64,000 nt of DNA from Diabrotica undecimpunctata (taxonomy: Eukaryota > Arthropoda > Insecta > Coleoptera > Chrysomelidae). Within the stretch, counting starts at the first letter, position 1, and every line of letters begins with the position of its first letter. Below, one piece after another: positions 9,775-37,829 of this stretch. The notes below the pieces were generated by a model. That model searched no databases. It worked only from the letters and a program-made list of their open reading frames with translations, and was not told where the DNA came from. The stretch covers positions 95,296,862 to 95,360,861 of the forward strand of contig NC_092804.1 in NCBI RefSeq assembly GCF_040954645.1, given 5' to 3'. The position numbers were made by a program, and so were the translations under genes.

Positions 9775-9777
<3 letters not shown>

Positions 9778-10241: not shown

Positions 10242-10357
10242 TCTTTTTTGTTTAGTAACAAAAAGAAGAAGATTTATTCACCCTTGACAGATGTCTGAAA
10301 GAATGTGATAGATATATGGAGAATTGAATATGACATTTTACAATTTTTATATATAAA

Positions 10358-12442: not shown

Positions 12443-12803
12443 TAAATGTGTGGAAATTTAAGATATTGTAGGCCTTGGTACGTAACTCATGTAATTTTCT
12501 TTCAAAAAAGTTTATATCAGCAAAAGCGATTTTAATTTCTAAATTAATAATATTTCTTCCAAACCTGTCACATAATTTCCAAGCATCATGGTGAATATTC
12601 CCAGTCCGATGATGTAAAAGGGAATTTACATTAACTAGGCCATTTGTAACATGTCCAGGGAAACATCCATTAGATCTACACTTCAACAAAAAAGTCTTCT
12701 GATTTTGTAAAGCAGCAAGTTTGATGGTAATTCTAGTCCAATCCTTCAGAATTCTGACTGTAGATTGCCCATAATCGTTTCGGATGTCATCGAAAAAACC
12801 CAT
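12372..12803 (-). CDS. PLE1 copy A N-terminal region
   Basis: 143 codons beginning MGFFDDIRNDYGQ, corresponding to the N-terminal part of a Penelope protein (before the RT). It contains a basic KDWTRITIKL segment and a CRSNGC pair. The ATG is 7 bases after a splice-acceptor-like TTATTCTTGTAG. It overlaps the RT frame by 71 nt in a different frame; seven instead of eight A residues in the run would make one continuous frame. Copy D has the same lesion. Confidence 0.8.
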   Translation of the reverse strand: MGFFDDIRNDYGQSTVRILKDWTRITIKLAALQNQKTFLLKCRSNGCFPGHVTNGLVNVNSLLHHRTGNIHHDAWKLCDRFGRNIINLEIKIAFADINFFERKLHELRTKAYNILNFHTFNEFNRRQRIKYNTEFHKIKKNTN

Positions 12804-12919
12804 ATTTTTCTACAAGAATAAGAAAAAAGAAGTACTTGTGACTCGTTTGGAACAAATATATAACTGTTTTGGATGGGTTGGAGTCAATAATAGGGCTATT
12901 GGTTAACTATTTTTTTAAT

Positions 12920-12957
12920 CTCGAGCTTTCAATTGTGTTTACAATTATTATCAAGAG
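12920..12957 (-). ncRNA. Variant hammerhead ribozyme, PLE1 copy B/A junction
   Basis: Same sequence and fold as the copy at 16290-16327, minus strand. Lies in the pseudo-LTR between copy B and copy A, where cleavage would release a unit-length RNA. Confidence 0.6.
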
Positions 12958-13396
12958 CTAAAAAAGACAAAATACTTACAAGGTTGAACTAAAAAGAAAA
13001 AACAATTTTTGTTAACTTACCAAATAAAAATTAGTTTGGTAAGTAAAAAATCACTGCTTACATGTTCAAAATATTTTATATAAAAATGTTTTGATCTAAA
13101 AAATGTTTCTCCGAAAATTTCTATAATTTTGAAAACATTTTTTTTAATATAAAAATAATTGAATTTATAAATAAGTTCAAATAGCAACCAATTACAAATA
13201 GCCTCAATGTCATAAATGCCAACATAAAATTTTTTATTTTTGACAATTATATTGTCAAAAGTAAAACTTCGTTTAAACATTCTTTTTTGTTTAGTAACAA
13301 AAAGAAGAAGATTTATTCACCCTTGACAGATGTCTGAAAGAATGTGATAGATATATGGAGAATTGAATATGACATTTTACAATTTTTATATATAAA

Positions 13397-14224
13397 TTAT
13401 AAAGAAAGAATATAATTATATATTTTACTTAAATTTTGAATCTCAGATCTTTTGTTTAAACTCTTATCATTTTTGCTAATACAAACCATTTCCAAAAAAG
13501 TCCTTTTAAATTTATTACTTTCACTACATAAAATTTTAATGTTATCAAAATCCATAATATGGTCTTTATCGATTACATGTTCTGCCAAAGCACAAGATGG
13601 TTTTTTAATTCTGCAATCACTTTTGTGAGAAATAATGCGATTTGAAAGATTTCTTCCGGTCTCACCAACATATTCAGCCTCACACTGAGTACAACTAATG
13701 CTGTATACTAAATTCGTTTTTTCAAATTTGTCTATAGGATATTTAGTTTTAGAATATAAAGATGAAATAGTTTTGATGTTCTTTGTTGCTATTTTTATAT
13801 TGTCAATAACCTTTAGTGTTTGTATTAATTTAGGTGTTAATGATGGTATAAAAGGTAGTGAATGATAATAGATGTTCTGATTGTTAGATACAATGTTTTG
13901 AGATTGAGCAAAAAATGGTGTTAAATTATTTATATTACCAATATTAGAAAAAAGCATCCTATGTAGCATATCTGGAGGATAAGAGTTTTCAATTAGAATA
14001 TTTTTTAATAACTGAAGATCTTCCTGTAGATAATCTGGATGAGAAAGTTTTAAAACACGTTCTTTTAATCCTGTTATAAGGTTCATTTTCATCTTATTTG
14101 GATGGTGAGAGTAATAGCTTATAAATCTATTACTACATATGGGTTTTCTGAACCATTTGGTTTTCAACATATTGTCTGTATTTCTTACAATTCTCATGTC
14201 AAGGAATGGTAGAGAATTATCCAC
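13397..14224 (-). CDS. PLE1 copy B: truncated RT-GIY-YIG
   Basis: C-terminal part of the PLE1 polyprotein. It starts downstream of the YVDD catalytic motif and keeps the connector and GIY-YIG nuclease (CTQC, YVGETGR, FLEMV), so it cannot reverse-transcribe. The first Met is an accident of the truncation: the full copy has Val at this codon. Identical by eye to the same part of copies A, C and D. Confidence 0.85.
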   Translation of the reverse strand: MDNSLPFLDMRIVRNTDNMLKTKWFRKPICSNRFISYYSHHPNKMKMNLITGLKERVLKLSHPDYLQEDLQLLKNILIENSYPPDMLHRMLFSNIGNINNLTPFFAQSQNIVSNNQNIYYHSLPFIPSLTPKLIQTLKVIDNIKIATKNIKTISSLYSKTKYPIDKFEKTNLVYSISCTQCEAEYVGETGRNLSNRIISHKSDCRIKKPSCALAEHVIDKDHIMDFDNIKILCSESNKFKRTFLEMVCISKNDKSLNKRSEIQNLSKIYNYILSL

Positions 14225-14266
14225 CTCTTCCTCAACTGTGAATTGTATATGCTGATTATGACTGTT

Positions 14267-14371
14267 TTATGTATTATTGTATTATGATTTAGTTTTGGCA
14301 CTTCCTAAACACAAAATTCATGAAACAGTCAACATTTTCAACAGTCATAAAAAAAAAAAAAAAAAAAAAAA
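14267..14371. other. Head-to-head centre of PLE1 with snap-back fragment and A23 tract
   Basis: Copy B ends at 14266 at element sequence AACAGTCAT. Then come 19 bp of filler (14267-14285), a 63-bp plus-strand piece of the RT (14286-14348, matching 17966-18028) ending at the same AACAGTCAT, 23 A residues (14349-14371), and then plus-strand copy C. Looks like template switching during insertion. Confidence 0.85.
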
Positions 14372-15850
14372 GCAAAAGAGCTCAAAATTTATAATTCTAT
14401 TGCTCCACGGTTCTATGCTCTGCCAAAAATACATAAACCAACTTTATCTATGAGACCAATTGTTTCATCTTTATGCCCTCCTAATGGACCAATAGCACAG
14501 CTCCTCACTGACATCTTAACTAATGCTTATAATTTAAACAACAATTTTTACATTAAAGATTCATTTGATTTTAGTTCTTTCATTAATAATTTCCAATTAC
14601 CACAAAATTATGTTTTAGTTAGTTTTGATGTAACATCTCTTTTTACTAATTTGCCTTTAGATTTAATCATAAGTAGTGTTGAAAAACATTGGAATGAGAT
14701 TTCACAACACACTAATATTGACTTATTACATTTCAAAACACTTATCAACTTTGTTTTTGATTCTAATATTTTTATATTTAATGGTGTATTTTATAAACAA
14801 ATTTTTGGTAGTCCTATGGGATCTAGTCTTTCACCCATTCTAAGTAGCTATGTCATGGATGATGTTATCAGTGATTGTATCAGTAATTGCACTTTTTTCA
14901 TTCCTTTTATTAAGAGATATGTAGATGATTTAGTTTTGGCACTTCCTAAACACAAAATTCATGAAACAGTCAACATTTTCAACAGTCATAATCAGCATAT
15001 ACAATTCACAGTTGAGGAAGAGGTGGATAATTCTCTACCATTCCTTGACATGAGAATTGTAAGAAATACAGACAATATGTTGAAAACCAAATGGTTCAGA
15101 AAACCCATATGTAGTAATAGATTTATAAGCTATTACTCTCACCATCCAAATAAGATGAAAATGAACCTTATAACAGGATTAAAAGAACGTGTTTTAAAAC
15201 TTTCTCATCCAGATTATCTACAGGAAGATCTTCAGTTATTAAAAAATATTCTAATTGAAAACTCTTATCCTCCAGATATGCTACATAGGATGCTTTTTTC
15301 TAATATTGGTAATATAAATAATTTAACACCATTTTTTGCTCAATCTCAAAACATTGTATCTAACAATCAGAACATCTATTATCATTCACTACCTTTTATA
15401 CCATCATTAACACCTAAATTAATACAAACACTAAAGGTTATTGACAATATAAAAATAGCAACAAAGAACATCAAAACTATTTCATCTTTATATTCTAAAA
15501 CTAAATATCCTATAGACAAATTTGAAAAAACGAATTTAGTATACAGCATTAGTTGTACTCAGTGTGAGGCTGAATATGTTGGTGAGACCGGAAGAAATCT
15601 TTCAAATCGCATTATTTCTCACAAAAGTGATTGCAGAATTAAAAAACCATCTTGTGCTTTGGCAGAACATGTAATCGATAAAGACCATATTATGGATTTT
15701 GATAACATTAAAATTTTATGTAGTGAAAGTAATAAATTTAAAAGGACTTTTTTGGAAATGGTTTGTATTAGCAAAAATGATAAGAGTTTAAACAAAAGAT
15801 CTGAGATTCAAAATTTAAGTAAAATATATAATTATATTCTTTCTTTATAA
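14366..15850 (+). CDS. PLE1 copy C: 5'-truncated RT-GIY-YIG
   Basis: Plus-strand partial copy. The reading frame enters just before FYALPKIHKP and runs to the normal stop. From the first internal Met (14450) it has 466 codons with all later RT motifs (SFDVTSLFTNLP, GSPMGSSLSP, YVDD) and the complete GIY-YIG domain. It lacks the N-terminal region. Its 3' region runs in tandem into full copy D. Confidence 0.88.
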   Translation, partial: KKAKELKIYNSIAPRFYALPKIHKPTLSMRPIVSSLCPPNGPIAQLLTDILTNAYNLNNNFYIKDSFDFSSFINNFQLPQNYVLVSFDVTSLFTNLPLDLIISSVEKHWNEISQHTNIDLLHFKTLINFVFDSNIFIFNGVFYKQIFGSPMGSSLSPILSSYVMDDVISDCISNCTFFIPFIKRYVDDLVLALPKHKIHETVNIFNSHNQHIQFTVEEEVDNSLPFLDMRIVRNTDNMLKTKWFRKPICSNRFISYYSHHPNKMKMNLITGLKERVLKLSHPDYLQEDLQLLKNILIENSYPPDMLHRMLFSNIGNINNLTPFFAQSQNIVSNNQNIYYHSLPFIPSLTPKLIQTLKVIDNIKIATKNIKTISSLYSKTKYPIDKFEKTNLVYSISCTQCEAEYVGETGRNLSNRIISHKSDCRIKKPSCALAEHVIDKDHIMDFDNIKILCSESNKFKRTFLEMVCISKNDKSLNKRSEIQNLSKIYNYILSL

Positions 15851-15966
15851 TTTATATATAAAAATTGTAAAATGTCATATTCAATTCTCCATATATCTAT
15901 CACATTCTTTCAGACATCTGTCAAGGGTGAATAAATCTTCTTCTTTTTGTTACTAAACAAAAAAGA

Positions 15967-16230
15967 ATGTTTAAACGAAGTTTTACTTTTGACAATATAA
16001 TTGTCAAAAATAAAAAATTTTATGTTGGCATTTATGACATTGAGGCTATTTGTAATTGGTTGCTATTTGAACTTATTTATAAATTCAATTATTTTTATAT
16101 TAAAAAAAATGTTTTCAAAATTATAGAAATTTTCGGAGAAACATTTTTTAGATCAAAACATTTTTATATAAAATATTTTGAACATGTAAGCAGTGATTTT
16201 TTACTTACCAAACTAATTTTTATTTGGTAA
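15967..16230 (+). CDS. 87-aa open frame in PLE1 3' region, copy C
   Basis: Same frame as in copies A and B. It contains a perfect hairpin TTTTGACAAT-ATA-ATTGTCAAAA (15987-16009), and its last codons overlap the inverted repeat ACTTACCAAA/TTTGGTAAGT (16203-16232). The DNA may therefore matter more as structure than as protein. Confidence 0.25.
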   Translation: MFKRSFTFDNIIVKNKKFYVGIYDIEAICNWLLFELIYKFNYFYIKKNVFKIIEIFGETFFRSKHFYIKYFEHVSSDFLLTKLIFIW

Positions 16231-16437
16231 GTTAACAAAAATTGTTTTTTCTTTTTAGTTCAACCTTGTAAGTATTTTGTCTTTTTTAGCTCTTGATAAT
16301 AATTGTAAACACAATTGAAAGCTCGAGATTAAAAAAATAGTTAACCAATAGCCCCATTATTGACTCCAACCCATCCAAAACAGTTATATATTTGTTCCAA
16401 ACGAGTCACAAGTACTTCTTTTTTCTTATTCTTGTAG
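16227..16437 (+). other. Candidate 5' leader intron of PLE1 copy D
   Basis: Consensus-like donor G|GTAAGT at 16227 and a pyrimidine-rich acceptor TTTTTTCTTATTCTTGTAG ending at 16437, 7 bases before the start codon at 16444. Two other acceptor-like TTTTTAG sites lie inside. An intron in the pseudo-LTR/leader is known for Penelope. Splicing here is an inference. Confidence 0.4.
16290..16327 (+). ncRNA. Variant hammerhead ribozyme, PLE1 copy C/D junction
   Basis: Order: stem I CTC (16290-16292), core UUGAUAA (16293-16299), an extra U, stem II AAUUGU-AAAC-ACAAUU (16301-16316), GAAA (16317-16320), GC, UC (predicted cleavage after 16324), stem I GAG (16325-16327). The canonical core is CUGAUGA; here C3 and G8, which pair with each other, are U and A. 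Stem III (A-U, G-C) has no loop and is self-complementary, so only a dimer could fold. Hammerheads are known in Penelope elements; this variant is an inference. Confidence 0.6.
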
Positions 16438-16443
16438 AAAAAT

Positions 16444-16875
16444 ATGGGTTTTTTCGATGACATCCGAAACGATTATGGGCAATCTACAGTCAGAATTCTG
16501 AAGGATTGGACTAGAATTACCATCAAACTTGCTGCTTTACAAAATCAGAAGACTTTTTTGTTGAAGTGTAGATCTAATGGATGTTTCCCTGGACATGTTA
16601 CAAATGGCCTAGTTAATGTAAATTCCCTTTTACATCATCGGACTGGGAATATTCACCATGATGCTTGGAAATTATGTGACAGGTTTGGAAGAAATATTAT
16701 TAATTTAGAAATTAAAATCGCTTTTGCTGATATAAACTTTTTTGAAAGAAAATTACATGAGTTACGTACCAAGGCCTACAATATCTTAAATTTCCACACA
16801 TTTAATGAATTTAATCGTAGACAAAGAATTAAATACAACACAGAATTTCATAAAATCAAAAAAAATACAAATTAA
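16444..16875 (+). CDS. PLE1 copy D N-terminal region
   Basis: 143 codons identical by eye to the copy A N-terminal frame. Starts at ATG 16444 after the acceptor-like TTCTTGTAG. Ends out of frame with the RT because of the 8-A run at 16858-16865; one A fewer would continue into the RT. Confidence 0.8.
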   Translation: MGFFDDIRNDYGQSTVRILKDWTRITIKLAALQNQKTFLLKCRSNGCFPGHVTNGLVNVNSLLHHRTGNIHHDAWKLCDRFGRNIINLEIKIAFADINFFERKLHELRTKAYNILNFHTFNEFNRRQRIKYNTEFHKIKKNTN

Positions 16876-18889
16876 TAAGTTCAATAAATTAAAAATAGAA
16901 GCTTTTGATAAGATAAAATTTCAAGAAAAATGGTTTAAAAATCTAACATCTATTCATTTTCCTTTTGAAATTAAAAAATTTTTAGCATTAGGACCTAAAT
17001 TTTCTTTATGTCCTTCCAAATCTGATATTAGAGTTCCTAATTTACTTTCTGATATTGAATCAATAATCAGACCACTTAATGATAGTCAAAAGGATGTTGT
17101 TAGATCTAAATGTACAAACGTTATTACAAACTTTTTGCATAAAGAAGTCAAAGATCATTTTTTAAATAAATACTATATGCAAACTAAACTTTTTCTTAAA
17201 AACCATCCTGAAATTTATATTGTTAAAAGCGATAAAGGTAACGTAACTGTTGTAATGTACAAAGAGGATTATCTACAAAAAACTGGAGAACTCTTAAATG
17301 ATACTAAGTATTACACTACACTTAGAAGGAGTCCTGTTTGTACTTTGCAACAAAAAGCAAATTGTCTAGTATCTAAATTAAACATAAAGAAATTTATTGA
17401 TAATAAAAAAGCAAAAGAGCTCAAAATTTATAATTCTATTGCTCCACGGTTCTATGCTCTGCCAAAAATACATAAACCAACTTTATCTATGAGACCAATT
17501 GTTTCATCTTTATGCCCTCCTAATGGACCAATAGCACAGCTCCTCACTGACATCTTAACTAATGCTTATAATTTAAACAACAATTTTTACATTAAAGATT
17601 CATTTGATTTTAGTTCTTTCATTAATAATTTCCAATTACCACAAAATTATGTTTTAGTTAGTTTTGATGTAACATCTCTTTTTACTAATTTGCCTTTAGA
17701 TTTAATCATAAGTAGTGTTGAAAAACATTGGAATGAGATTTCACAACACACTAATATTGACTTATTACATTTCAAAACACTTATCAACTTTGTTTTTGAT
17801 TCTAATATTTTTATATTTAATGGTGTATTTTATAAACAAATTTTTGGTAGTCCTATGGGATCTAGTCTTTCACCCATTCTAAGTAGCTATGTCATGGATG
17901 ATGTTATCAGTGATTGTATCAGTAATTGCACTTTTTTCATTCCTTTTATTAAGAGATATGTAGATGATTTAGTTTTGGCACTTCCTAAACACAAAATTCA
18001 TGAAACAGTCAACATTTTCAACAGTCATAATCAGCATATACAATTCACAGTTGAGGAAGAGGTGGATAATTCTCTACCATTCCTTGACATGAGAATTGTA
18101 AGAAATACAGACAATATGTTGAAAACCAAATGGTTCAGAAAACCCATATGTAGTAATAGATTTATAAGCTATTACTCTCACCATCCAAATAAGATGAAAA
18201 TGAACCTTATAACAGGATTAAAAGAACGTGTTTTAAAACTTTCTCATCCAGATTATCTACAGGAAGATCTTCAGTTATTAAAAAATATTCTAATTGAAAA
18301 CTCTTATCCTCCAGATATGCTACATAGGATGCTTTTTTCTAATATTGGTAATATAAATAATTTAACACCATTTTTTGCTCAATCTCAAAACATTGTATCT
18401 AACAATCAGAACATCTATTATCATTCACTACCTTTTATACCATCATTAACACCTAAATTAATACAAACACTAAAGGTTATTGACAATATAAAAATAGCAA
18501 CAAAGAACATCAAAACTATTTCATCTTTATATTCTAAAACTAAATATCCTATAGACAAATTTGAAAAAACGAATTTAGTATACAGCATTAGTTGTACTCA
18601 GTGTGAGGCTGAATATGTTGGTGAGACCGGAAGAAATCTTTCAAATCGCATTATTTCTCACAAAAGTGATTGCAGAATTAAAAAACCATCTTGTGCTTTG
18701 GCAGAACATGTAATCGATAAAGACCATATTATGGATTTTGATAACATTAAAATTTTATGTAGTGAAAGTAATAAATTTAAAAGGACTTTTTTGGAAATGG
18801 TTTGTATTAGCAAAAATGATAAGAGTTTAAACAAAAGATCTGAGATTCAAAATTTAAGTAAAATATATAATTATATTCTTTCTTTATAA
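16805..18889 (+). CDS. PLE1 copy D reverse transcriptase with GIY-YIG endonuclease
   Basis: 694-codon frame, the plus-strand counterpart of copy A. RT motifs PKIHKP, SFDVTSLFTNLP, GSPMGSSLSP and YVDD (near 17957) are followed by GIY-YIG (YVGETGR near 18613) and the catalytic-type Glu in FLEMV. It lies in the tandem pair C-D, so its RNA would start from the pseudo-LTR of copy C. Apart from the shared one-base frame displacement near 16858, no lesion is visible. Confidence 0.92.
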   Translation: MNLIVDKELNTTQNFIKSKKIQINKFNKLKIEAFDKIKFQEKWFKNLTSIHFPFEIKKFLALGPKFSLCPSKSDIRVPNLLSDIESIIRPLNDSQKDVVRSKCTNVITNFLHKEVKDHFLNKYYMQTKLFLKNHPEIYIVKSDKGNVTVVMYKEDYLQKTGELLNDTKYYTTLRRSPVCTLQQKANCLVSKLNIKKFIDNKKAKELKIYNSIAPRFYALPKIHKPTLSMRPIVSSLCPPNGPIAQLLTDILTNAYNLNNNFYIKDSFDFSSFINNFQLPQNYVLVSFDVTSLFTNLPLDLIISSVEKHWNEISQHTNIDLLHFKTLINFVFDSNIFIFNGVFYKQIFGSPMGSSLSPILSSYVMDDVISDCISNCTFFIPFIKRYVDDLVLALPKHKIHETVNIFNSHNQHIQFTVEEEVDNSLPFLDMRIVRNTDNMLKTKWFRKPICSNRFISYYSHHPNKMKMNLITGLKERVLKLSHPDYLQEDLQLLKNILIENSYPPDMLHRMLFSNIGNINNLTPFFAQSQNIVSNNQNIYYHSLPFIPSLTPKLIQTLKVIDNIKIATKNIKTISSLYSKTKYPIDKFEKTNLVYSISCTQCEAEYVGETGRNLSNRIISHKSDCRIKKPSCALAEHVIDKDHIMDFDNIKILCSESNKFKRTFLEMVCISKNDKSLNKRSEIQNLSKIYNYILSL

Positions 18890-19005
18890 TTTATATATAA
18901 AAATTGTAAAATGTCATATTCAATTCTCCATATATCTATCACATTCTTTCAGACATCTGTCAAGGGTGAATAAATCTTCTTCTTTTTGTTACTAAACAAA
19001 AAAGA

Positions 19006-19269
19006 ATGTTTAAACGAAGTTTTACTTTTGACAATATAATTGTCAAAAATAAAAAATTTTATGTTGGCATTTATGACATTGAGGCTATTTGTAATTGGTT
19101 GCTATTTAAACTTATTTATAAATTCAATTATTTTTATATTAAAAAAAATGTTTTCAAAATTATAGAAATTTTCGGAGAAACATTTTTTAGATCAAAACAT
19201 TTTTATATAAAATATTTTGAACATGTAAGCAGTGATTTTTTACTTACCAAACTAATTTTTATTTGGTAA
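19006..19269 (+). CDS. 87-aa open frame in PLE1 3' region, copy D
   Basis: As the other three copies but with one Glu-to-Lys change (LLFKLIYK instead of LLFELIYK), one of the few differences seen among PLE1 copies. Confidence 0.25.
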   Translation: MFKRSFTFDNIIVKNKKFYVGIYDIEAICNWLLFKLIYKFNYFYIKKNVFKIIEIFGETFFRSKHFYIKYFEHVSSDFLLTKLIFIW

Positions 19270-19328
19270 GTTAACAAAAATTGTTTTTTCTTTTTAGTTC
19301 AACCTTGTAAGTATTTTGTCTTTTTTAG

Positions 19329-19366
19329 CTCTTGATAATAATTGTAAACACAATTGAAAGCTCGAG
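19329..19366 (+). ncRNA. Variant hammerhead ribozyme, PLE1 copy D 3' region
   Basis: Fourth copy of the PLE1 hammerhead-like motif, same bases as at 16290-16327. Confidence 0.6.
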
Positions 19367-19437
19367 ATTAAAAAAATAGTTAACCAATAGCCCTATTATT
19401 GACTCCAACCCATCCAAAACAGTTATATATATATATA

Positions 19438-19993: not shown

Positions 19994-20055
<62 letters not shown>
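19994..20055. repeat. (TA)n tract, insertion site of gypsy-A
   Basis: TA dinucleotides interrupted by the LTR retrotransposon; TA sequence resumes at 25083. Confidence 0.95.
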
Positions 20056-20059
<4 letters not shown>

Positions 20060-20405
20060 AAGAAAAACTATTGTTTTGTTTTCCTTTAATAATATTTCTA
20101 TTTATATTCTCATTTTGTTACGCCACTGTCAAAACATTAAGTTCTTCTTTTTGTTTTTATGTTAGACATACTTGTGAGGTGTTTTGACAGTGACAATTCA
20201 TTAATCTTACGATTGTCAATTGTCTGGCCATTATTACTTTTGCCTGTAATTTGTAAAATTAGAATATAAGCTTTAAATGTTGTTTCTTTTTTACAGGTAA
20301 TGTATTTATTAATAATTATTATTGTACAAAAAATAATAAAGTTTACTTTTTTACAGAGAAACGCAGTTGAGTTTATTTTAAAGTTTGCTGATAAAAAACC
20401 TTACA
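20056..20405 (+). repeat. 5' LTR of gypsy-A
   Basis: 350 bp, TG...CA. Contains a 13-bp inverted repeat CACTGTCAAAACA/TGTTTTGACAGTG and an AATAAA near 20335. The sequence just after it (AAACAACATTTTTGC) is not a standard TGG-starting primer-binding site. Confidence 0.95.
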
Positions 20406-20456
20406 AAACAACATTTTTGCTAACAGAAAAAGGTATAATAATTTTTAATTATCAAA

Positions 20457-21578
20457 ATGGCAAAACTGAGATTTGAATTTACTGTTAAATCATTGCAAAC
20501 AGATACTAAAACAAATATTATTAGCATAACCACAATTGAGAATGAAGAAAATGAAATTTTTGCAATGCCCCATGATATGCAAAATATTTCCTATCATGAA
20601 AAAATCCAGACGACAGTAGCTTTTCAGAAAGTAAAAAGGGCTCTAACAAAACGGAGTACTACAAGAAAAGTTTGGATTGCAGATGAAAATATTTTAAAAG
20701 TTTATATGGATAAAGATGGGAATATACAATTCAATGATTTTCTTTTAGAACAACAAGATATTCAAAGGAAAGAATCTCTAACATCCACAACTGGTATCCC
20801 ACTAGATGCATTAGAACAGATCTTGGAGAGAGTTACAAAATCAAATGAAAAACAATGTATTGAATCCTTTAATAAAAACAAAGTATCCGAACAATTTGTG
20901 ATAGAAAAATATACAGGTAAAAATGTGAACGTTTTACAATGGATGGAAACATTTGAAAATGAGTGCACAAGATTACATATAGATCAAAATACAGAAAAAA
21001 TTGAACTTCTAAGATTATTTTTAGAAGGATCATGTGTGGATTGGTATAGGTCAATGCTTATAAAATATTCAATAAATTCTAATTGGGATGAATGGAAAAA
21101 CAAATTTTGTGACACATATGCAGACAAAGGGTGGACTCCAGTGAGGTATGCTTTTCAGTTCAAATACAAAAATGGTTCCTTATTAGAATATGCTCTTAAA
21201 AAGGAAAGACTCATACTACAAATAAACAAATCATTAGATAAAAAAAGTATGATTGATTTAATAGCTATTGGACTTCCAAATTATATAGCTGATAGAATTG
21301 ATCGAGACACTTTGAAAGAAACGGAAGATCTCTTCAATGAAATTAGAGGTTTAGAACACTTAATCAAAATTAAGACTTCAAAAACAAACGAAAAATGTTA
21401 CTTTGAGAAAAAACAAGCCTGCAAAATTTGTGAAAAAGAAGGAAAAGGTTTACGCTACCACCTGGAATCAAGTTGCTGGTTCAGAAGCAAAAGTGATATT
21501 TCGAAAAATCAGCTAAGAACTGTCAACAACCATAAATTAGAAATAGAATTAAATGAAACAAATCCAAAAAACTGTTAA
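20457..21578 (+). CDS. gag: gypsy-A Gag
   Basis: 373 codons, starting at the first ATG after the 5' LTR. Structural protein that packages element RNA. The middle carries a retrotransposon-gag-like region (WMETFENECTRLHI, LFLEGSCVDWY, WDEWKNKFCDTYADKGW), and the C-terminus has one Cys-rich cluster (CKICEKEGKGLRYHLESSC) in place of a standard CCHC knuckle. It ends at TAA 21576-21578, four bases after the slippery heptamer A AAA AAC (21566-21572). The pol frame is -1 relative to gag and opens at 21557, so Gag-Pol is most likely made by -1 ribosomal frameshifting. Confidence 0.92.
   Translation: MAKLRFEFTVKSLQTDTKTNIISITTIENEENEIFAMPHDMQNISYHEKIQTTVAFQKVKRALTKRSTTRKVWIADENILKVYMDKDGNIQFNDFLLEQQDIQRKESLTSTTGIPLDALEQILERVTKSNEKQCIESFNKNKVSEQFVIEKYTGKNVNVLQWMETFENECTRLHIDQNTEKIELLRLFLEGSCVDWYRSMLIKYSINSNWDEWKNKFCDTYADKGWTPVRYAFQFKYKNGSLLEYALKKERLILQINKSLDKKSMIDLIAIGLPNYIADRIDRDTLKETEDLFNEIRGLEHLIKIKTSKTNEKCYFEKKQACKICEKEGKGLRYHLESSCWFRSKSDISKNQLRTVNNHKLEIELNETNPKNC
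21566..21572 (+). promoter_or_regulatory. -1 ribosomal frameshift heptamer A AAA AAC
   Basis: In the gag frame the codons read CCA AAA AAC TGT TAA, so the heptamer has the canonical X XXY YYZ phasing. After a -1 shift the ribosome reads AAA AAA CTG into the open pol frame. The next in-frame pol stop upstream is at 21554-21556, so the overlap is very short and lies exactly here. I cannot see a clear downstream pseudoknot. Confidence 0.8.
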
Positions 21579-24500
21579 TACCACCACTAATTAGAATCAA
21601 GTTACTATTGAATGACACTTTAGAGATCTATGGAGTATATGATTCAGGAGCAAATGTGTCATTGATTAATGCAAAATTATTACAGATAAAAGCACATAAT
21701 AGAGGTGATCTTCAAATAGTAAACTTGAGGACAATTAATGGTGTTAAAAAAACAAATGGTATAGTAACACTTAAGATAAAAATCTATGATATTGAAAAAG
21801 AAATGGATGTATTTATTGTAGATAATGAAAATTTCAATTATGATTTTTTAGTTGGGTTAGATTGTATTAAGAATTTCAGATTAATTCAAAATGAAGATCT
21901 AAGAATCACACAATACAACAACTCAAAAGAATTTGAAAATTTGTCAATTATTGATAATATGAGTATTCCTGAGTTTCCAGGTAACATATATTTAAATGCA
22001 TCTAAAGAAAATATTAGTGATATATACAAATATGAAATAAATTTTAATGAGAGTATAAATACTGACAATTTTGAAATAGCAATTAACCATTTAGATTTAA
22101 ATCAGCAATCAGAAATTGAACAACTGATTAATAAATATAAATCAGCATTTGCTAAAGACAAATATGATGTAGGTACTATAAGAGAGTATGAAGCTCATAT
22201 TGACTTAATTGTAGATAAATACTGCTCCAAACGTCCATATAGATGTACCATTGAAGATAGAAAGGAGATAGAAAGTCAGATAGCAGAACTTTTAAAGAAT
22301 AATTTAATTGAAGAGTCATATAGTCCATTTGCGGCTCCAGTGACACTAGCATACAAAAAAGGAGAGGACAAAAAGACAAGACTGTGCATAGATTTCAGGG
22401 AACTAAATAAAATCGTTGTTCCTCAATCACAACCTTTTCCATTGATCGAGGACTTAATGTTAAAAACTAACAATTGTAAATATTTTTCTACTTTAGACAT
22501 AAATTCAGCATTTTGGTCAATTCCAATGAGAGTACAAGATAAAGAAAAAACAGCATTTGTGACACAAGAAGGTCATTTCCAGTGGACTTGTCTCCCATTT
22601 GGTTTGAAGACGGCTCCAGCAATTTTTCAACGGATTTTAAGCAGCCTTATAAGAAAATATAAACTCTCAGACTTTACAGTCAATTATATAGATGATATCC
22701 TAATTTTTTCAAAAACCTTTGATGAACATATATTACACTTGTCCAAGTTATTTGATGCAATATTAAATGAAGGTTTCAGACTAAAATTTTCTAAATGTAC
22801 CTTTGCAGAACAATCAGTAAAATACTTAGGACACATAATAGAAAATAGTTCCATAAAACCTTTAAAAGACTACTTGATTGCTGTGAAAAATTTCCCTGTT
22901 CCAGAAACTAGAAAGAATGTACGTCAATTCTTAGGAAAAATCAATTATTATCATAAGTTTGTCCAAGATATTGCAATAATTTTAGACCCTCTGCACAACT
23001 TATTAAGAAAAGATGTTGATTTTATTTGGTCTAAGGAGTGTCAAGAATCTTTCGATAAAATAAAGTCATTACTTTGTTCAGAACCAATATTAAGGATTTT
23101 CAACCCTGATTTACCAATTAATATATATACAGATGCCAGCATAAAAGGAGTAGGAGCTGTATTAAAACAAATTGATGAACACGGATGTAGCAAGCCAGTG
23201 GCATATTTTTCAAAAAAATTAATGGAAAATCAAAAGAAAAAGAAGGCAATATATTTAGAATGTCTAGCGATAAAAGAAGCTATAAAATATTGGCAACATC
23301 TGCTCATTGGAAAAGAGTTTATAGTATATTCAGATCACAAACCTTTAGAAAATTTAAACATAAAAGCTAGAACAGATGAAGAATTGGGAGACTTGACATT
23401 TTACTTATCTCAATATAATTTTAAAGTAAAGTATAATCCAGGAAAATATAACCAGGAAGCAGACTGTTTAAGCAGAAATCCAGTTTTAGAATCTCAAGAA
23501 AATACAGATGAAGTATTAAAAATAGTAAACCTGATCAATCTGGAAGATATAAAAATTGACCAACTCTCAAATATTGATTTGCAAAATAATAAAAGTAAAT
23601 ACAGTTTCAAAAATGATATATATTATAAAAAGTCAAACAGAAAAGACAAAATTATTTTATCTGAAGCTTTAAGTAAAACATTGATAAAAAATGTACACAA
23701 TACTTACTGTCACTTAGGAACAAACCAGATGTTAAATAAAATATCACCATTTTATACAGCCAAAAATATGACTACAAACATTAAGAAAATATGTGATAAC
23801 TGTGATATCTGCATTAAAAATAAATCAAGACGGAAACCTAACTATGGTTTAATGTCACAATTAGGACCAGCTACATATCCATTTGAAATTGTCTCCATTG
23901 ACACCATTGGTGGTTTTGGAGGATCTCATTCAACAAAAAAATATCTTCATCTATTAGTAGACCATTTCTCAAGATATGCCTATTGTTTGACATCAAAAAC
24001 ACAAAACTCTGATGACTTCATAAAGATAATTAAAATGGTAACACAAGATCACAAAATTAAAACTGTTATGACTGATTAATATCCTGGAGTCAACTCAAAA
24101 GAATTCAAAGATTTCCTACAGATCAATAATATCAAAATGATATTTACTGCTGTTGATGCACCATTTTCAAACGGTATCAATGAAAGATTAAATCAAACAT
24201 TGGTTAATAAAATTAGATGCAAAATAAATGAAGGTGGCAGGAAAACAGCATGGACAACAATTGCTCAAAAATGTGTAGAGAAATATAATGAAACTGAACA
24301 TACCATCACAAAATTTGCACCAAAATATTTAATAGAAGGAGAAAATATAAGCATCCTGCCACATGAATTATCATCTAAAGTCGCACATGCTGATCTCGAA
24401 CTAGATAGAACAATTGCCTTAGAAAATACAAAAAAATCACATAATTATAATAAAAAGCAGTTCGATTTACATAGGAAGGAAATTGATTTAAACATTGGGG

Positions 24501-24685
24501 ATTTAGTATATGTGGAGAACGGTAACCGCCTAAATAGAAAGAAGTTAGATGAATTAAGGATTGGACCATACAAAATATTAAAGATTTCCAATTCAATTTA
24601 TGAAATCGATACTGGGCATAGGAAAACAGAATCAAACTTCTTTCATATCACTAAGCTTACTCCAGTATTGAAAACAAATATTTAG
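21573..24685 (+). pseudogene. pol: gypsy-A Pol (PR-RT-RNaseH-IN) with one nonsense codon in integrase
   Basis: Frame -1 to gag, open from 21557. Counting from codon 21608: aspartic protease YDSGANVSL (D about 12); RT with LDINSAF and the catalytic YIDDI (about 360); RNase H TDASIKGVG (about 507); integrase HHCC zinc finger (H...H about 697-701, C...C about 728-731); first catalytic Asp in SIDTIGG (about 763); second Asp in MTD (822), immediately followed by TAA at 24077-24079. The same frame continues from 24080 through the catalytic Glu (NGINERLNQ, near 24180) and a GPY/F-like module (RIGPYKILKI, NFFHITKL) to the stop at 24683-24685. One nonsense substitution is the only lesion seen; it removes DDE integrase activity. 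Confidence 0.93.
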
Positions 24686-24732
24686 TGAACGTTCAATATT
24701 TGTTTTAAAATTTCTTCTCCAAGGGGGGGAGA

Positions 24733-25082
24733 TGTAAAGAAAAACTATTGTTTTGTTTTCCTTTAATAATATTTCTATTTATATTCTCATTTTGTTACGC
24801 CACTGTCAAAACATTAAGTTCTTCTTTTTGTTTTTATGTTAGACATACTTGTGAGGTGTTTTGACAGTGACAATTCATTAATCTTACGATTGTCAATTGT
24901 CTGGCCATTATTACTTTTGCCTGTAATTTGTAAAATTAGAATATAAGCTTTAAATGTTGTTTCTTTTTTACAGGTAATGTATTTATTAATAATTATTATT
25001 GTACAAAAAATAATAAAGTTTACTTTTTTACAGAGAAACGCAGTTGAGTTTATTTTAAAGTTTGCTGATAAAAAACCTTACA
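24733..25082 (+). repeat. 3' LTR of gypsy-A
   Basis: 350 bp, apparently identical to the 5' LTR, directly preceded by the G-rich polypurine tract at 24719-24732. Confidence 0.95.
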
Positions 25083-30310: not shown

Positions 30311-30332
30311 CCTTATATATATATATATAATG

Positions 30333-30422
30333 TCCTCGACGCATCAAGGAATTTGGATATCGGTTAAAATACTTGGGAATTCCAAGGTTGGCCAAATCCA
30401 AATTTCTAATTGATTCGATGCA
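30333..30422. other. Long imperfect hairpin upstream of the hairpin array
   Basis: Outer arms GCATC...GAATTTGGAT (about 30341-30359) and ATCCAAATTTC...GATGC (about 30396-30422) are complementary with bulges. Inner palindromic pieces are GGGAATTCC and TTGGCCAA. Role unknown. Confidence 0.55.
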
Positions 30423-30721
30423 GGGAAATTCCACTTTCGCTACGTAAAACAAAGGATTTGTTTTACATAAAAGCAGGTAGATTTTCTCTCACCGGTCAGT
30501 CGAGCTTGCCTCTTCTACTGTAGACCTAGTCGGTGCTATTATTGTTCCTACTAAGTTATTGTTTTATTTCTGATTTCTTATATACCATTTTTATTTTAGC
30601 ATTATTGTATATTCAGACCTTTTCAGGTTAGAATATTACTATGATCTATATTTGTTCATATACTGATTGTTTGATATTTTAATTGGTTATTTTGATTGTT
30701 TATTTTTCTTGTATTTTGTGT

Positions 30722-31530
30722 CTAAGTTGTTCTTCCGTAAGTTAAGAACACTTAGAAATATTTATCTTGCTTTTTCTATTTTATATTTTGATTTGTACTT
30801 TGTCTAAGTAGTTCTTTCCGGTAAGTCAAAGAACTCTTAGAAATATTTCTCTGAATATTTGACTTGTTATTTTAATTGTTTGTCTAAGCCGTTCTTTTCC
30901 GGTAAGTCAAAGAACTCTTAGAAATATTTTCATAATCATTGTTGCATTATTATTTCCGATATTTTATCTAAGATATTTTCTTTCTTAAGTTAAGAAAATA
31001 CTTAATACATTTGTTTCTTTCATTTTCTATTTTATGCTAAGTTGTTTCTTCCGTAAGTCAAGAAACACTTAGCAATATTTTCACATCTTTTCTATATTTG
31101 ATTTTTCTTATTTTCTTTTATAAGTCGTTTCTTCCGTAAGTCAAGAAACACTTATAAATATTTGTGCATTTATTTTACTATATTTGATTCTCTTGTTTAT
31201 TTTCTATTCTAAGTTGTTTCTTCCGTAAGTCAAGAAACACTTAGACATATTTCTATAATCTGTTTCATTTTTGCATTTCTCGTTTTATATTTTGAGTATT
31301 TTATTTTTCCACTCTAAGTCGTTTCTTCCGTAAGTTAAGAAACACTTAGAAATATTTCCATATTTTACTCTCACATTTACATATTTCATTTATCTATATT
31401 TCTGTCCTAAGTTGTTTCTTCCGTAAGTCAAGAAACACTTAGAAACATTTTTTTCTTTGCATTATATTTTTATACCATTTAATTTAATTGTTTACTAAGT
31501 TATTCCTTCCGTAAGTCAAGGAATACTTAG
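30722..31530. repeat. Array of ten covarying hairpins
   Basis: Ten hairpins at 30722-30755, 30804-30840, 30884-30921, 30968-31004, 31037-31072, 31121-31154, 31209-31244, 31314-31349, 31407-31442 and 31495-31530. Consensus: CTAAGT, one bulged base, GTTTCTT, loop CCGTAAGTC, AAGAAAC, ACTTAG, then AAATATTT. Starts are 69-105 bp apart, with T-rich unrelated spacers. Stem substitutions are compensated: GTTCTT/AAGAAC, GTTTCTT/AAGAAAC, ATTTTCTT/AAGAAAAT, ATTCCTT/AAGGAAT, and an outer C-G that becomes A-T in copy 6. The conserved element is therefore the stem and the GTAAGT-bearing loop. Confidence 0.88.
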
Positions 31531-31573
31531 ATCATTTTTACCTATCTGTTTTCCATTTTTGCTCTGTTACTTT

Positions 31574-31638
31574 GTAACTGTTCCTTGGAACCGTTACATA
31601 TAACAGATATTTGTCACTGGAACTGTTATTTATAACAG
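31574..31638. other. Two further, different hairpins before the polB leader
   Basis: GTAAC-T-GTTCC-TT-GGAAC-C-GTTAC (31574-31597) and the perfect CTGTTAT-TT-ATAACAG (31623-31638). They follow the ten-member array but do not share its loop. Confidence 0.6.
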
Positions 31639-31676
31639 CGGTAGTATTTAACCTTTCTACCAGCGACAAACCAAAG

Positions 31677-31772
31677 ATGGTGAATACCCGATCCAATTCC
31701 GGGGATAGGAAGAAGCCCGAAGAGCCGGCGATGGGTCCTACAGGCCCAAATGCCCCCTCTCGGCAACAATAA
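31677..31772 (+). CDS. Small 31-aa frame beginning MVNTRSNSG
   Basis: Arg/Lys/Pro-rich, ends SRQQ-stop, 119 bases before the polB ATG. Codon composition is GC-richer than its surroundings. A pyrimidine-rich TTTTTCTTCATTCCGTTTCAG (AG at 31806-31807) follows, so this could be the first exon of the polymerase or another Polinton transcript. I cannot show that it is expressed. Confidence 0.35.
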   Translation: MVNTRSNSGDRKKPEEPAMGPTGPNAPSRQQ

Positions 31773-31891
31773 CATCATTACAACTATTTTTCTTCATTCC
31801 GTTTCAGGTATTCTTAGTGATCGGACGTGCTTTGGTGAGTTTTGTAATATTTATAAACTCTAATTTTTAATAATTTTATAAGATTTAAAAT

Positions 31892-34800
31892 ATGGAAAAT
31901 TTTTTAATTGTTAGAGATCAAGTTAAAAAAATTCATAAATTCGGAGTTCAGGGGAGAACTCTGGAATTTAAAATAAAAAATGTGCCTGAGGGATCAGACC
32001 CGGTTAAATGGACCAAAATGGCAATAGAACAAATTGTGATGAAGGGAACAGAGAACATTAAACCGCAGGATCAGGTTGGTTTCACGTTCTGTAGCAAAGA
32101 TTTTTTAAGAGGACAGGGGTGGATGCGATTTAGACCGGCTGCCGATGTAACTGTGGACGATGTTTTTAACAAAATATCATCAATTTATCAGTCCAATTCT
32201 ACAGGTCTTAACACCGAGACATTTTGTCTAGGGATTACAATCGTTAAGATGCCTAAAGGTCAAGGGAAGACCACGCAAGTTTAATACGTTTGATGAGGAG
32301 TGTACAAAAAGACAAAGTATAATGGTCATTAAAAATAAGGATAACCTCTGCCTTCCTCGAGCTTTGATTGTAGCTAAAGCGTACGTAGACAAAAATCCTA
32401 AACTTTTAAAAATTCGTCAAGATGTAGGTAAAATGCAAGAAATAGAAGCAATAAAATTGACAACGGATGCGGGTGTTATTATTCCTATTGACGGCGCTGG
32501 CATCCCAGAATTACAACAATTTCAATCGTATCTCAATAATTACAAGATTGTTGTATACGGTTATGGAAGTAAGGGCCGTGATGTGGTTTTTGAAGGATTT
32601 GGTGATGGACCGAAATTGAATCTTCTGTTTCATGAAGGTCATTATAACGCAATCAGTTCTATGACTGGTGCTTTTTCATGCAGCTATTATTGAGTGGCGT
32701 GTCATACACCTTATAATAATAAAAACGAGCACAGGTGTGGTGGGACATGCTTTGCTTGTTGTCGTTCACCGGCTTGTTCTAAAGATACTTTGAAAATTCC
32801 CTGTTGCAAATGTGGACGAAGCTTTTACGGTGAAGCGTGTTTCAATGCCCATATTTCATCTATCTGTGAGAAAATTAAAAGATGTAGGGATTGTTTCAAG
32901 ATCTACACGAAAAACCATGTGTGTGGAGAGATATTCTGCAAAACTTGCGGAAAAAATTGTCCTAATGATCATCTTTGTTATATGCAAGCAGATTTCGGTA
33001 CTCCTCCATTAAACGATTTTCTTTTCATTTTTTACGATCTGGAGACAATCCAGGAAACGGTAATGCCTGATGGTTCGGTTCTTCAAGAACCTAATCTGTG
33101 TGTTTTTAAACAGTGCTGCGACAAATGTTTGGAATCCGATACCAGCATGTGTATAAAATGTGGTGTTCGTCTACAGGTTTTAAAAAAAAACCCAATTGAA
33201 CGGTTAATGGAGTTTGTATCGAATCAACGTAAACTTTTTAAAAGAGTAGTTGTTACGGCCCATAACGGCTCTGGTTTCGATCACCAGTTTGTATTAAATT
33301 ATATTCTAACAAAAACTGATATTACTCCTGATCTGATTATGCGTGGTACAAAGTTGGTGTCTATGAGTGTTGGGAATGTTAGGTTTCTCGACAGTCTTAT
33401 TTTCCTATGGCTTTATCAGCTTTACCTAAAGCTTTCGGTTTAACTCGATTGAAGAAAGGCTACTTTCCCCATCTGTTTAATAAGGTAGAAAACCAAAATT
33501 ATGTCGGGGTTGTTCCTCCTCTACAGTACTACGATCCAGATAATTTGAAGGAGGATGCACGAGAGAGGTTGATAAGCTGGCATGCTGAAAGAGTTAATGA
33601 AGGATATGTCTTTGATTTTAGAAAGGAAATCGAAGAGTACTGTATATCTGATGTTGAAATATTAGCACAGTCTTGCTTAAGTTTTAGGAAACAGTTGCTT
33701 GACACGTCAAATGTTTGCCCTTTTTTGGAAGCTACAACTATAGCCTCGACTTGCAATAAGGTATATAGACGTAATTTCCTACAGCCTAACACTATAGGTC
33801 TTATTCCTAAAGGTGGTTATCGTTTTAAAGACAATCAGTCAAAAATAGCTCTGCAGTGGCTACTGTGGGAAGAGAAGCAGCGTGGAATTAAAATACAACA
33901 TGCTGCAAGGGGATCAGAGGCTTTGATAGGAAATCTCAAGGTAGATGGTCTTCACGATAAGACCATTTTTGAATTTCAGGGCTGTTATTATCATGGATGT
34001 CCTAGCTGTTACCCCGAAAAGAGAACGTCTCCTCTTCACGACGACCCTTCGGATTGTATGGAGAATCGTTATGACAAGACAAATCTTAAAAACCAATATT
34101 TGCAGTCTCAAGGTTATGAAGTAGTGGAAATGTGGGAATGCACTTTTAGAAAAATAATAACGCCAGAAATAGCATTATACACCGAAAACCACTATCTTAT
34201 GATGACTTTACCTCTAAATCCTAGAGATGCTCTCTACGGTGGCAGAACCGGTAATACTGTTGAATATTTTACTTTTAGTAAGGATGAAAAGATAAAATAT
34301 GTTGACGTTTGCTCACTTTATCCGTTTATTTGTAAATATGGAAAGTTTCCTATCGGACACCCAAAGAAAATATATGTTGGAGAGAAATGCAATGCTGTCG
34401 ACATTACTGAGTTGTCTGGATTGATAAAGTGTAAAGTATTACCACCTACAACTCTTTACCACCCTGTTTTACCAGCAAAGATGAATAGTAAATGTATGTT
34501 TGTTCTCTGTCGTAAATGCGGTGAGGATTTTGTACAAACCGACTGTGAGCATTCAGATGAAGAACGAGCTCTCACAGGAACATGGGTAATTGAAGAAGTT
34601 GTGAAGGCTTTAACGAAGGGTTATAAGTTATTGGATGTGTATGAGATATGGTCGTACGACAGTTTAGAGTTATCGAAATCTCAGAAAGGTCTTTTTTCCG
34701 ATATGATGAACAAATTCATCAAACTCAAACAACAAGCTTCTGGTTGGCCTCGTGGATGTGAATCTGATGAGCAGAAAAATCATTATATTGAAGAGTTTTT

Positions 34801-35584
34801 TCAACGAGAAGATGTAAGATTGGACTTTTCTAAAATATCGGAGAATCCTGGTCTTAGATCTTTGGCAAAGTTAATGTTGAATTCTTTTTGGGGAAAGTTC
34901 GCTCAGCGTGAAAATCTTCCTAAAACCTCCATCATAAAACAGCCAAATGAATTTTTTTCTATGTTGGTGAACCCTTCGCTTTATGTCAACAACGTAATTC
35001 CTGTAAACGATGAGACACTTGTTGTAACTTGGGAATACGTTGAAGAAGCGGCTTCAATGTCTCCCACAGTAAATGTGGTTCTTGCCTCTTATGTGACAGC
35101 TTTGGCTCGTCTTAAATTATACTCCTATTTAGATTTGGTGGCGGATAGGGCCTTTTATTATGACACTGATTCAATTATATACATGACAAAGCCAGGTTTA
35201 AAGGACCTTCCTACCGGCCAGTGTATTGGTGATCTTACGGATGAGTTAGGTGGTGGATCTATCTCTGAATTCGTTTCTGGAGGACCTAAAAATTATGCCT
35301 ATAAATGTATTCTTCCTGATGGTCAGCAGAAAATTTGCTGTAAAGTTACGGGGATATCACTTAACTATGCAGTATCTAAAACCATAAACTTTGATAAAAT
35401 TAAAGAAATGGTTCTCGAAAAGGCTGATCCTGTTTCTATCGTTACTAAATAGATACAAAGGACCCAAGATCATTGTGTCATTACAAAAACTCTTGAAAAG
35501 ATATATAGACCTAACTCTACCAAGAGAAAATTTTCCGAAAATTTCACATCGGTACCTTACGGTTACAAAAAACTCAAAATTTAA
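31892..35584 (+). pseudogene. Polinton protein-primed DNA polymerase B, disrupted
   Basis: Family B polymerase of the protein-primed (DNA_pol_B_2) type. Pieces in order: N-terminal part (31892-32284); next segment (32322-32693); Cys-rich zinc-like region and 3'-5' exonuclease (32694-33443) with FYDLETI (Exo I) and AHNGSGFD (Exo II); then 33407-35452 with YCISDVEI (Exo III), a nuclease-like insert (VDGLHDKTIFEFQGCYYHGC), motif A DVCSLYP, motif B LMLNSFWGKFAQ and motif C YYDTDS. Lesions: frameshift near 32265-32290, TGA at 32691-32693, frameshift near 33400, TAG at 35450-35452; the end of the frame is TAA 35582-35584. All polymerase catalytic motifs remain visible. It would have replicated the element from protein-primed ends. 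Confidence 0.92.
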
Positions 35585-35814
35585 TATTTGTTTTTTTTTT
35601 TTAATTTAGAATATTTTTATATAGATAATAAGAGTTTTAGTAAATGATAGTATTAACGTATTATTATTTTTTATTTTTCAGATTAAATTAATTTACTTTT
35701 CTTATCCTTATGGTATAAGCGCTTATCTGTTTTCTAATATTATTTTCAAAATAGCTCAAATCAAAGTTTTAAATCAGATACCAAAATTTAAAGGATGTCA
35801 AAATAATCTGTTAT

Positions 35815-36425
35815 AGATTACTTAAATTATTTATTTTTGGAACCTAAATGTATACTAAAATAATCCAAACTATAATAAAATATGTTCAACAGATCATAAA
35901 AAGATGCTTACTGACCCAATATTTTACATAATTAAAAAAAGATGGTCAGCACAAGTCATAAAAAAAGATGTCTGTATGGAACACTCAAATTATTTACATT
36001 TTGGATCCTAAAAGGTATACTAAAATAATCGCAAATTTAATAAAAGATGTTCAACAGACCATAAAAAGATGCTTACTGACCCATATTTTGTATAATTTAA
36101 AAAAAGATGGTCAGGACAAGCCATAAAAAGATGTCTGTATGGACCACTCAAATTATTTATATTTTGGATCCTAAAATGTATACTAAAATAAGCACAAATC
36201 TAATAAAAGATGTTCAACAGACCATAAAAAGATGCTTACTGGCCCATATTTTGTATAATTTAAAAAAAGATGGTCAAATAAGCCACAAAAAGAATCTGTT
36301 CTGAACCACTCAAATTTTTTTACTTTTGGAACCTAAAATGTATATTAAATGATCCAAAAACTAATAAACGATGTTCAACAGGTCATAAAAAGATGTTTAC
36401 TGAACCCTTATTTTTGTAATATTAT
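35815..36425. repeat. 165-bp tandem repeat in right TIR
   Basis: Mirror of 8230-8860; units share CATAAAAAGATGCTTACTG and TAATAAAAGATGTTCAACAG. Confidence 0.85.
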
Positions 36426-37829
36426 TTCAATACTGTTTTTTTTTTTGCTCATTAAATTATGTATCGGATAACAGATAAGCATACATTCACCTCCATACTA
36501 ACTGTTTGTCCCATACTAATATTACCCCTTCCCGGTAGTCACTAAATCATGCCTTCTCGTGGCGACTACTGTTAAAAGCAAAATTTAGTTATTTTAGAAA
36601 TAATTATTGTCTCTGAAAATTTAACATTTTTATGGAAAAAAGCTTACACAGAGTGAGAAACTAACTATAACAAATGAATTTTGCTTGAACCAAATTGATT
36701 AAAAGTCCGAGCCCTTGCACTTTTGCGTACATTTTTTTTGTTATAGGTATACTTCAATAGCTAGGAACCACTACTGAACGTAACAATTAAATTTAACAAC
36801 CAGAGTACAGTTTATTATAAGACAGAAACACTTAATATTTAAACCTTATCTTTACAGACACTACATATAGCCAAAATAGATTGATTTTTTTTCAGTATAG
36901 CCAAGCCGTAAACAAATATAGAGACGATTTATGTGTCTAATACCCCAGCACACAAAAGCTGGTAGAATGTAAGTTGCCTATAATATTTTTCATATTATAT
37001 AATTATGTAAAATCACATAGATCAGTGGTTCTCAACCTTTTTGAGTAATGTACTCTTTTTTTTTAGTTTTGGTACTACCTAACTTAAATAAAACAGTATT
37101 TTAACAATGCCCCGAGTGTTAATTTTAGAGTCACCTACTAAACTTGTAACGTAAAATATTATTATTTTTTGTGTTATTTTATGTGGTGTTGATTTTAGCT
37201 GTTTTTGCGTACCAACGCAAAATAATGATATATACCACCAGTGGTTGGGAACCTCTGGACATAGATGATTTTTCTCTATGGAATTATATCTTTTTCTAAA
37301 CATGTAACTGTTGTATAATTTGTAAAATTGTAAAAGTGCAAAATCACATTTAATTGCTATTGTAATGATTTTAGGTTACTTGTCACTATTGAATGGATAT
37401 CTATCAACCAAAAAAAGTTGAATAATGTATGGCTTGATAGACCGTATATAGACTATGCTGACAACCTATTACATAATATTATAATAAAATTGTATGTTAA
37501 TTACTTTTTAAATAAAACACATTTTTGTATGTTTTTTTTTTATTTCAAGCCTTTCCAGCTCTACGCCTTAAATTTCTAAAAACAAAGGAGGTTGATCCAT
37601 TATTGTGTAAATCTGCAGTCAATCGTCACTAATGTTTTTATTCGTAAATCAAATTTTTGGTAGCGAATCGACTGATTTGGCCAGAACTTGTGTGATCTTA
37701 AAGTATTTTTGATTAAACAATAGAGATGTTATTTTTACTTATAATTTTTCCCGTTTTTAAGTCTTTGGAATCTATGACCGATGAAATGTATCATATTGAT
37801 ATTTTTAGTTGTAATTCATTTTTTTTTTC

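Follow-up and report, generated by a model that had tools for sequence, protein, structure and literature searches.

The hairpin array analyzed here occupies positions 30722..31530, on the plus strand, of a 64,000-nucleotide stretch of the Diabrotica undecimpunctata genome (NC_092804.1; hereafter, the window) and consists of ten bulged hairpins of 34–38 nt separated by T-rich spacers. Each unit is comprised of an outer stem (CTAAGT/ACTTAG) and an inner stem (GTTTCTT/AAGAAAC), with a one-base bulge, mostly T or C, between CTAAGT and GTTTCTT and a loop, mostly of 9 nt, with the sequence CCGTAAGTC; most units are trailed by a AAATATTT-like tail. The original prediction, made from the sequence alone, described the stems and the loop correctly and missed the bulge, the tail and the length variation. 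Unit 1 (30722..30755) is followed by unit 2 (30804..30840), with A-T in place of T-A and a shifted bulge, unit 3 (30884..30921), with a C.T mismatch, and unit 4 (30968..31004), the most divergent, in which an inner G-C is replaced by T-A and a C.A mismatch is located at the tip. Unit 5 (31037..31072), unit 6 (31120..31155; outer pair C-G replaced by A-T), unit 7 (31209..31244), unit 8 (31314..31349), unit 9 (31407..31442) and unit 10 (31495..31530; two compensated inner pairs, G-C to A-T and T-A to C-G) complete the array, all in the same orientation. The two-sided stem changes that had been claimed are thus present in units 2, 4, 6 and 10.

A covariance model built on six of the units gave 16 matches in the 64-kb window at E ≤ 5, namely, all ten units and six antisense readings of units. 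Compared with dinucleotide shuffles (100 per strand), the array folds with z scores of –6.1 on the plus strand and –7.7 on the minus strand, better than shuffled sequence in either case and slightly more so on the minus strand; the ten-hairpin array is confirmed. In the global minimum-energy fold, seven of the ten units form their own hairpin, and units 3, 7 and 9 pair elsewhere. The motif GTAAGT is found in the loops of nine of the ten window units. No Rfam family matched the window at the gathering score. Loop-loop kissing by exact match was considered and dropped, as the complement ACTTAC is absent from the plus strand of the surrounding long terminal repeat (LTR).

The sequence that contains the array is a solo LTR from a Ty3/gypsy retrotransposon (30331..31768, plus strand, 1438 bp, TG...CA ends), flanked by identical copies of the target-site duplication ATAA at 30327..30330, within a TA repeat, and at 31769..31772. 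This assignment rests on the LTR ends, the duplication and the complete copies of the element found elsewhere in the genome. In a DNA search of the beetle's own genome, the best 40 of 1,123 candidates were all 99–100% identical to the query. Most of 30 excised loci match the window from 30327–30338 through 31768–31775; with the LTR itself as the query, 21 of the 30 loci (the window included) align from 30331, and all 30 reach 31768. In two loci (L093 and L094), the LTR is present twice, with a primer-binding site (PBS; TGGCGCCCAAC) after the first copy, a polypurine tract (PPT; GAGGAGGGGGGA) before the second, and a gag frame and a pol frame in between. The L094 gag contains the Ty3_capsid domain (PF19259), and its pol encodes, in this order, aspartyl protease, RVT_1, RNase H, Integrase_H2C2 and rve; the closest relative of Pol among the matches listed is 56% identical. 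The TG..CA ends with a short duplication, the PBS and PPT, the Ty3-type capsid and the order of the Pol domains are those of Ty3/gypsy elements. In L092 and similar loci, with 3.6 kb between LTR starts, the interior is shortened and has no pol-length frame. The owner of the array is a young, high-copy retrotransposon, represented at this locus by a solo LTR that has inserted into a Polinton. Gypsy-like elements have been reported in quantity in Diabrotica, amounting to 0.19 Gb in D. undecimpunctata (PMC8982398).

Hairpin units occur across the genome. The pattern AAGTNGTTTCTTCCGTAAGTNAAGAAACACTT has 3,307 exact matches (1,577 on one strand and 1,730 on the other) and its reversed control has none, the figure being a count of pattern matches and not of units each placed in an LTR; the first matches, which were listed, form clusters, with a spacing of mostly ~77–180 bp. 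The number of units differs between copies: five in L129, nine in L128, ten in the window and 13 in L134; L131 has nine, eight detected by the pattern and one by the covariance model. A compensated variant, TAAGTNGTTV..BAACACTTA, has no match in the genome. Relatives of the array in viral contigs were sought in IMG/VR and dropped: the 14-mer TTCCGTAAGTCAAG occurs there in 61 stretches with one match apiece, and the covariance model gave only partial matches (21 at E ≤ 1, the best at 0.017, covering model positions 11–27).

The neighbor on the 3′ side, separate from the element that carries the array, is the polB region of a Polinton (31892..35452, plus strand), which is open in several frames. 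A DNA_pol_B_2 domain is located in 33407–35452, and the three ORFs ahead of it have no Pfam match. The original prediction placed the array upstream of polB and regarded it as a Polinton feature, possibly a structured leader RNA or a replication or packaging signal. The position is correct, 362 bp separating the array from the first polB-region ORF, but the array belongs to another element. A search with 31769–32700 yielded 44 rows of 99 candidates, from which 20 loci, including the window's own, were excised. Three of these (L109, L110 and L111) contain both Polinton flanks and lack the LTR; at these empty sites, the TA repeat, longest in L110, directly joins the sequence located 3′ of the LTR in the window. 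The array is not a Polinton feature because a solo LTR bounded by a target-site duplication encloses it, because Polinton copies exist without it, and because it occurs genome-wide in the LTRs of another element; the empty sites rule out a Polinton-specific signal. Both observations that the prediction itself had named as speaking against it, Polinton copies without the array and hairpins spread over the genome, were thus made, and a role as a leader, replication or packaging signal of polB retains virtually no probability. The idea of a structured leader RNA, untenable for polB, is plausible for the retrotransposon gag.

Several other features were noted in the window and in related loci. In two of the 20 Polinton loci (L113 and L126), a member of this LTR family has inserted independently within a few hundred bases of the polB region, both times in the orientation opposite to polB; an insertion preference of the family for this neighborhood is possible. 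Inverted repeats of ~1.6 kb, each containing ~164-bp tandem repeats, are located at 7642–9273 and 35367–37001, the polB ORF extending slightly into the right one. Nested between the ends of the Polinton are a near-perfect inverted repeat (9763–19430, with 4.45-kb arms at 9817–14266 and 14981–19430) that is Penelope-like and contains ORFs for reverse transcriptase along with a GIY-YIG match below threshold, and a second Gypsy-type element (20055–25031), which has ORFs for gag and pol and identical end repeats of at least 300 bp. Between 25300 and 30000, in the part of the window where one might look for other Polinton genes, the plus strand is strongly C+T-rich and has no recognizable long ORFs.

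The LTRs of this family fall into three subfamilies, A (that of the window), B and C, in which the hairpins are retained and the spacers diverge, in line with the predicted variability of the spacers. Subfamily B, defined by L113 and L128, is young (40 of 43 rows at 98–100%), and its LTR is 79–87% identical to that of the window. Its nine units all carry GTAAGT in the loop. The L128 copy has the target-site duplication TAAT; at L128:5117–5157, TAAT after the 3′ LTR is followed directly by the reverse complement of an LTR end, as would be seen if a second copy had inserted tail to tail.

Within this one genome, units of A and B were paired by order and flanks. The comparison covered eight of the ten A units; units 1 and 4 of A and unit 4 of B lack a clear partner and were omitted. 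Over 292 columns, the eight orthologous units show 280 matches, 11 mismatches and one gap column (96% identity), whereas five spacers show 211 matches, 28 mismatches and 84 gap columns. Seven of the 11 mismatches lie in stems, and six of these are the two sides of three pairs: T-A to C-G in unit 6 and C-G to T-A in unit 8, both of which keep Watson-Crick pairing, and unit 3, where a C.T mismatch in A corresponds to T-A in B. The seventh, in unit 10, is one-sided and uncompensated. When seven changes were placed at random in 400,000 trials, exactly two compensated pairs arose in 0.0635% and three in none; the simulation scores the unit 3 pair as T-A, and strict pair-to-pair compensations number two.

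Covariation was assessed on 111 units, 40 of them distinct, from 12 of 76 own-genome loci at E ≤ 1e-6, a threshold at which weak units are lost, including unit 4 in most of its copies. GTAAGT is present in the loop in 104 of the 111 rows and in 33 of the 40 distinct ones. Among the distinct units, 96.3% of cells are paired; two-sided changes occupy 32 cells, compared with 7.8 in shuffles (reached in none of 500) and at most three with the partner slid, which bears out the predicted covariation of the stems. The covariation score was 0.210, compared with 0.104 in shuffles and at most 0.081 with the partner slid. Two of the five measures were weaker: pairs with a two-sided change numbered five versus 3.4 (47 of 500 shuffles as high) and further pair types 13 versus 10.6 (21 of 500). 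The stem-keeping compensatory changes expected of a structured leader are thus found, with these two measures only weakly above shuffles. The bulge column is filled in all 40 distinct rows (23 T, 12 C, 4 A and 1 G), in an alignment fitted to a bulge-bearing model. Together, the compensations between A and B and the covariation across units support selection on pairing as the process that has kept the hairpins.

The gag frame begins inside the LTR (first codons at 31677..31768, plus strand) and, in L093 and L094, crosses the LTR end and the PBS; its ATG, at 31677, lies 146 nt past the end of the array. Upstream of the array is an initiator-like TCAGTC (30496..30501, plus strand), the sole TCAGT in the LTR and a putative transcription start, with the A at 30498. 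The sequence TCAGTCGAGC is found in all ten further loci (L128–L137), and positions 30373–30497 are identical between A and B at 123 of 125 sites. From TCAGT (30496) to the gag ATG, there are only two ATG triplets versus 12.0 expected (none of 1,000 shuffles as low), whereas CAT is not depleted over the same stretch (23 versus 19.0). Of these two ATGs, one is confined to the window copy, 38 of 40 others having T. The leaders of five further LTRs contain 0, 1, 1, 1 and 2 ATGs versus 8.2–12.8 expected, these being the five of ten loci in which the gag pattern was matched. Among the 64 trinucleotides in the window leader, AAT is the most depleted and ATG the second; ATC and TAG also occur less often than expected. 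A leader ATG is followed by a frame of 12 codons (31034–31072) whose end coincides exactly with that of unit 5; this frame is absent in subfamily B.

Because gag starts within the LTR, an initiator-like site lies upstream and upstream ATGs are avoided, the array most likely belongs to a 1.2-kb 5′ leader RNA. Transcription may alternatively start after the array, which is conceivable because a TATAA at 31599, before gag, is present in A and C; it is absent in B, where the TATA-like words at 31599, 31631 and 31645 are not kept. The stretch between the array and gag (31531–31676) folds with a z score of –4.0. A predicted structure at 31564..31670 (plus strand), with a stem CTGTTA..TAACAG followed by a branched stem TTTGTC..GACAAA, has 88–97% of cells paired per helix in A, B and C; its two covarying pairs in these subfamilies do not exceed shuffles.

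We considered how else the array could have arisen and been retained. A plain functionless tandem repeat, its copies alike merely through the youth of the element, would agree with copies that are mostly 95–100% alike, with a varying number of units and with the young copies, where stems are as variable as spacers (variable sites among 40 copies: 27 of 256 in stems, 43 of 447 in spacers and 25 of 106 in loop and bulge). The 40 copies scored per query are the best matches to that query, so that low diversity within a query is partly due to the search. Variation among young copies shows no constraint after insertion, which is expected if copies are neutral once inserted and is not itself support for constraint; the differences between A and B in spacers and indels, next to units that are 96% identical with paired changes, make a functionless repeat very improbable. 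An origin by mutation is less improbable but still far from likely: a template switch within an imperfect palindrome, whether in reverse transcription or in replication, would copy one arm onto the other, with tandem duplication besides and no selection. Template-switch mutations associated with quasipalindromes are known (PMC7202029), and the change in unit 3 from C.T in A to T-A in B fits arm correction, but the bulge persists where copying of one arm onto the other would be expected to remove it. None of the 40 young copies shows a two-sided change, and the spacers diverge much faster than the units, loops included.

The most serious rival acts at the DNA level. Each unit would be a palindromic site for a host factor, with enhancer, insulator or repressor activity, and paired changes would follow from the need for both half-sites to match. 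Covariation alone does not separate an RNA from a DNA reading. One-sided changes comprise 10 G-U, 8 A-C and 8 other distinct events in the 40 young copies, and 8 G-U and 6 A-C cells in the 40 distinct units, and thus show no RNA-strand bias in either set, which is why the DNA-level array has to be taken seriously. Most two-sided states are Watson-Crick with no G-U excess, palindromic repeat arrays have been described in Sirevirus LTR control regions (PMC2829016), and unit numbers from five (L129) to 13 (L134) are enhancer-array-like. However, the one-base bulge and the asymmetric 9-nt center are odd for a dimer site, the avoidance of ATG on the plus strand across the array is left unexplained, and the array is preceded by the initiator-like site. 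We consider a DNA-level role possible, if on the unlikely side.

LTR control regions with palindromic or tandem repeats are already known, and the beetle array resembles several such cases and fits none. The LTRs of Sireviruses, Ty1/copia elements of plants, contain many copies of a palindromic motif (PMC2829016), with strong predicted secondary structure and an excess of small RNAs (PMC10760457, PMC5311732). The likeness is a palindromic motif repeated within the LTR; but, in the available portions of these sources, the motifs belong to copia elements, measure 11–17 bp among those listed, mostly have a CGG-CCG core and lie upstream of the TATA box, whereas the beetle units are bulged hairpins of 34–38 nt with a CCGTAAGT loop, in a gypsy element and probably downstream of the start. 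An identity with the Sirevirus motif was rejected, the element being Ty3/gypsy and its units having no CGG-CCG core. Insect gypsy-group elements with tandem repeats ahead of gag include ZAM (2.3 repeats of 307 bp) and Tirant (2–6 of 102 bp) (PMC5408687); their repeats lie in the 5′ UTR and are tied to chromatin localization, with no hairpins mentioned in the available part of that source, while the beetle repeats lie in the LTR itself. For Ty3, a leader palindrome has been proposed to function in RNA dimerization, and in Ty3 and retroviruses short palindromes at the RNA 5′ end act in this process (PMC11381356); these are, as far as the same source describes them, single and short, in contrast to the many covarying units of the beetle array.

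Three further systems offer partial parallels. In Ty1, gag begins within the LTR and the PBS lies in coding sequence, as here, but Ty1 is a copia element with a short leader. Baculovirus hr regions, which are enhancers and origins in viral DNA, are built of tandem repeats around imperfect palindromes of ~30 bp, and in this the beetle units are similar. The Su(Hw) insulator of gypsy is a host-factor array of the DNA-level kind. The papers listed for the Woot retrotransposon offered no useful parallel, and among the open-licence papers listed none described long bulged hairpins that covary and are arrayed within an LTR ahead of gag.

On balance, we think it somewhat probable that the array forms a multi-hairpin leader in a retrotransposon LTR and that selection acts on its RNA structure. 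In such a leader, with the start site and strand deduced from sequence, transcription would begin near 30498, upstream of the array, and place the bulged hairpins in a 5′ leader (R-U5) of 1.2 kb, poor in ATG and rich in U, ahead of the gag start at 31677. The repeated hairpins, with their CCGUAAGU loop, would then act in cis on the element's own RNA, as a multivalent Gag-binding packaging or dimerization signal, by helping ribosomes to reach the gag AUG, or both. If the leader reading is correct, we would give packaging or dimerization about one half of the likelihood, a role in translation one quarter, and some other role of the RNA, such as the binding of U1 by the GUAAGU loops, the remaining quarter; the GTAAGT (GUAAGU) of the loops is the 5′ splice-site core, complementary to U1.

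More speculatively, and with considerable doubt, the array may represent a class of LTR-retrotransposon leader in which a long U-rich strand carries 5–13 exchangeable bulged hairpins with GUAAGU loops, the number of units changing as in a repeat while the RNA shape is held, to provide a tunable multivalent platform for Gag packaging or for U1 recruitment; in the latter case, U1 would shield the promoter-proximal leader from cleavage and splicing. The locus illustrates that a nested insertion can make the signal of one element pass for that of another. If the leader is confirmed, the many young natural copies with differing unit numbers would constitute a ready experiment on repeated leader hairpins.
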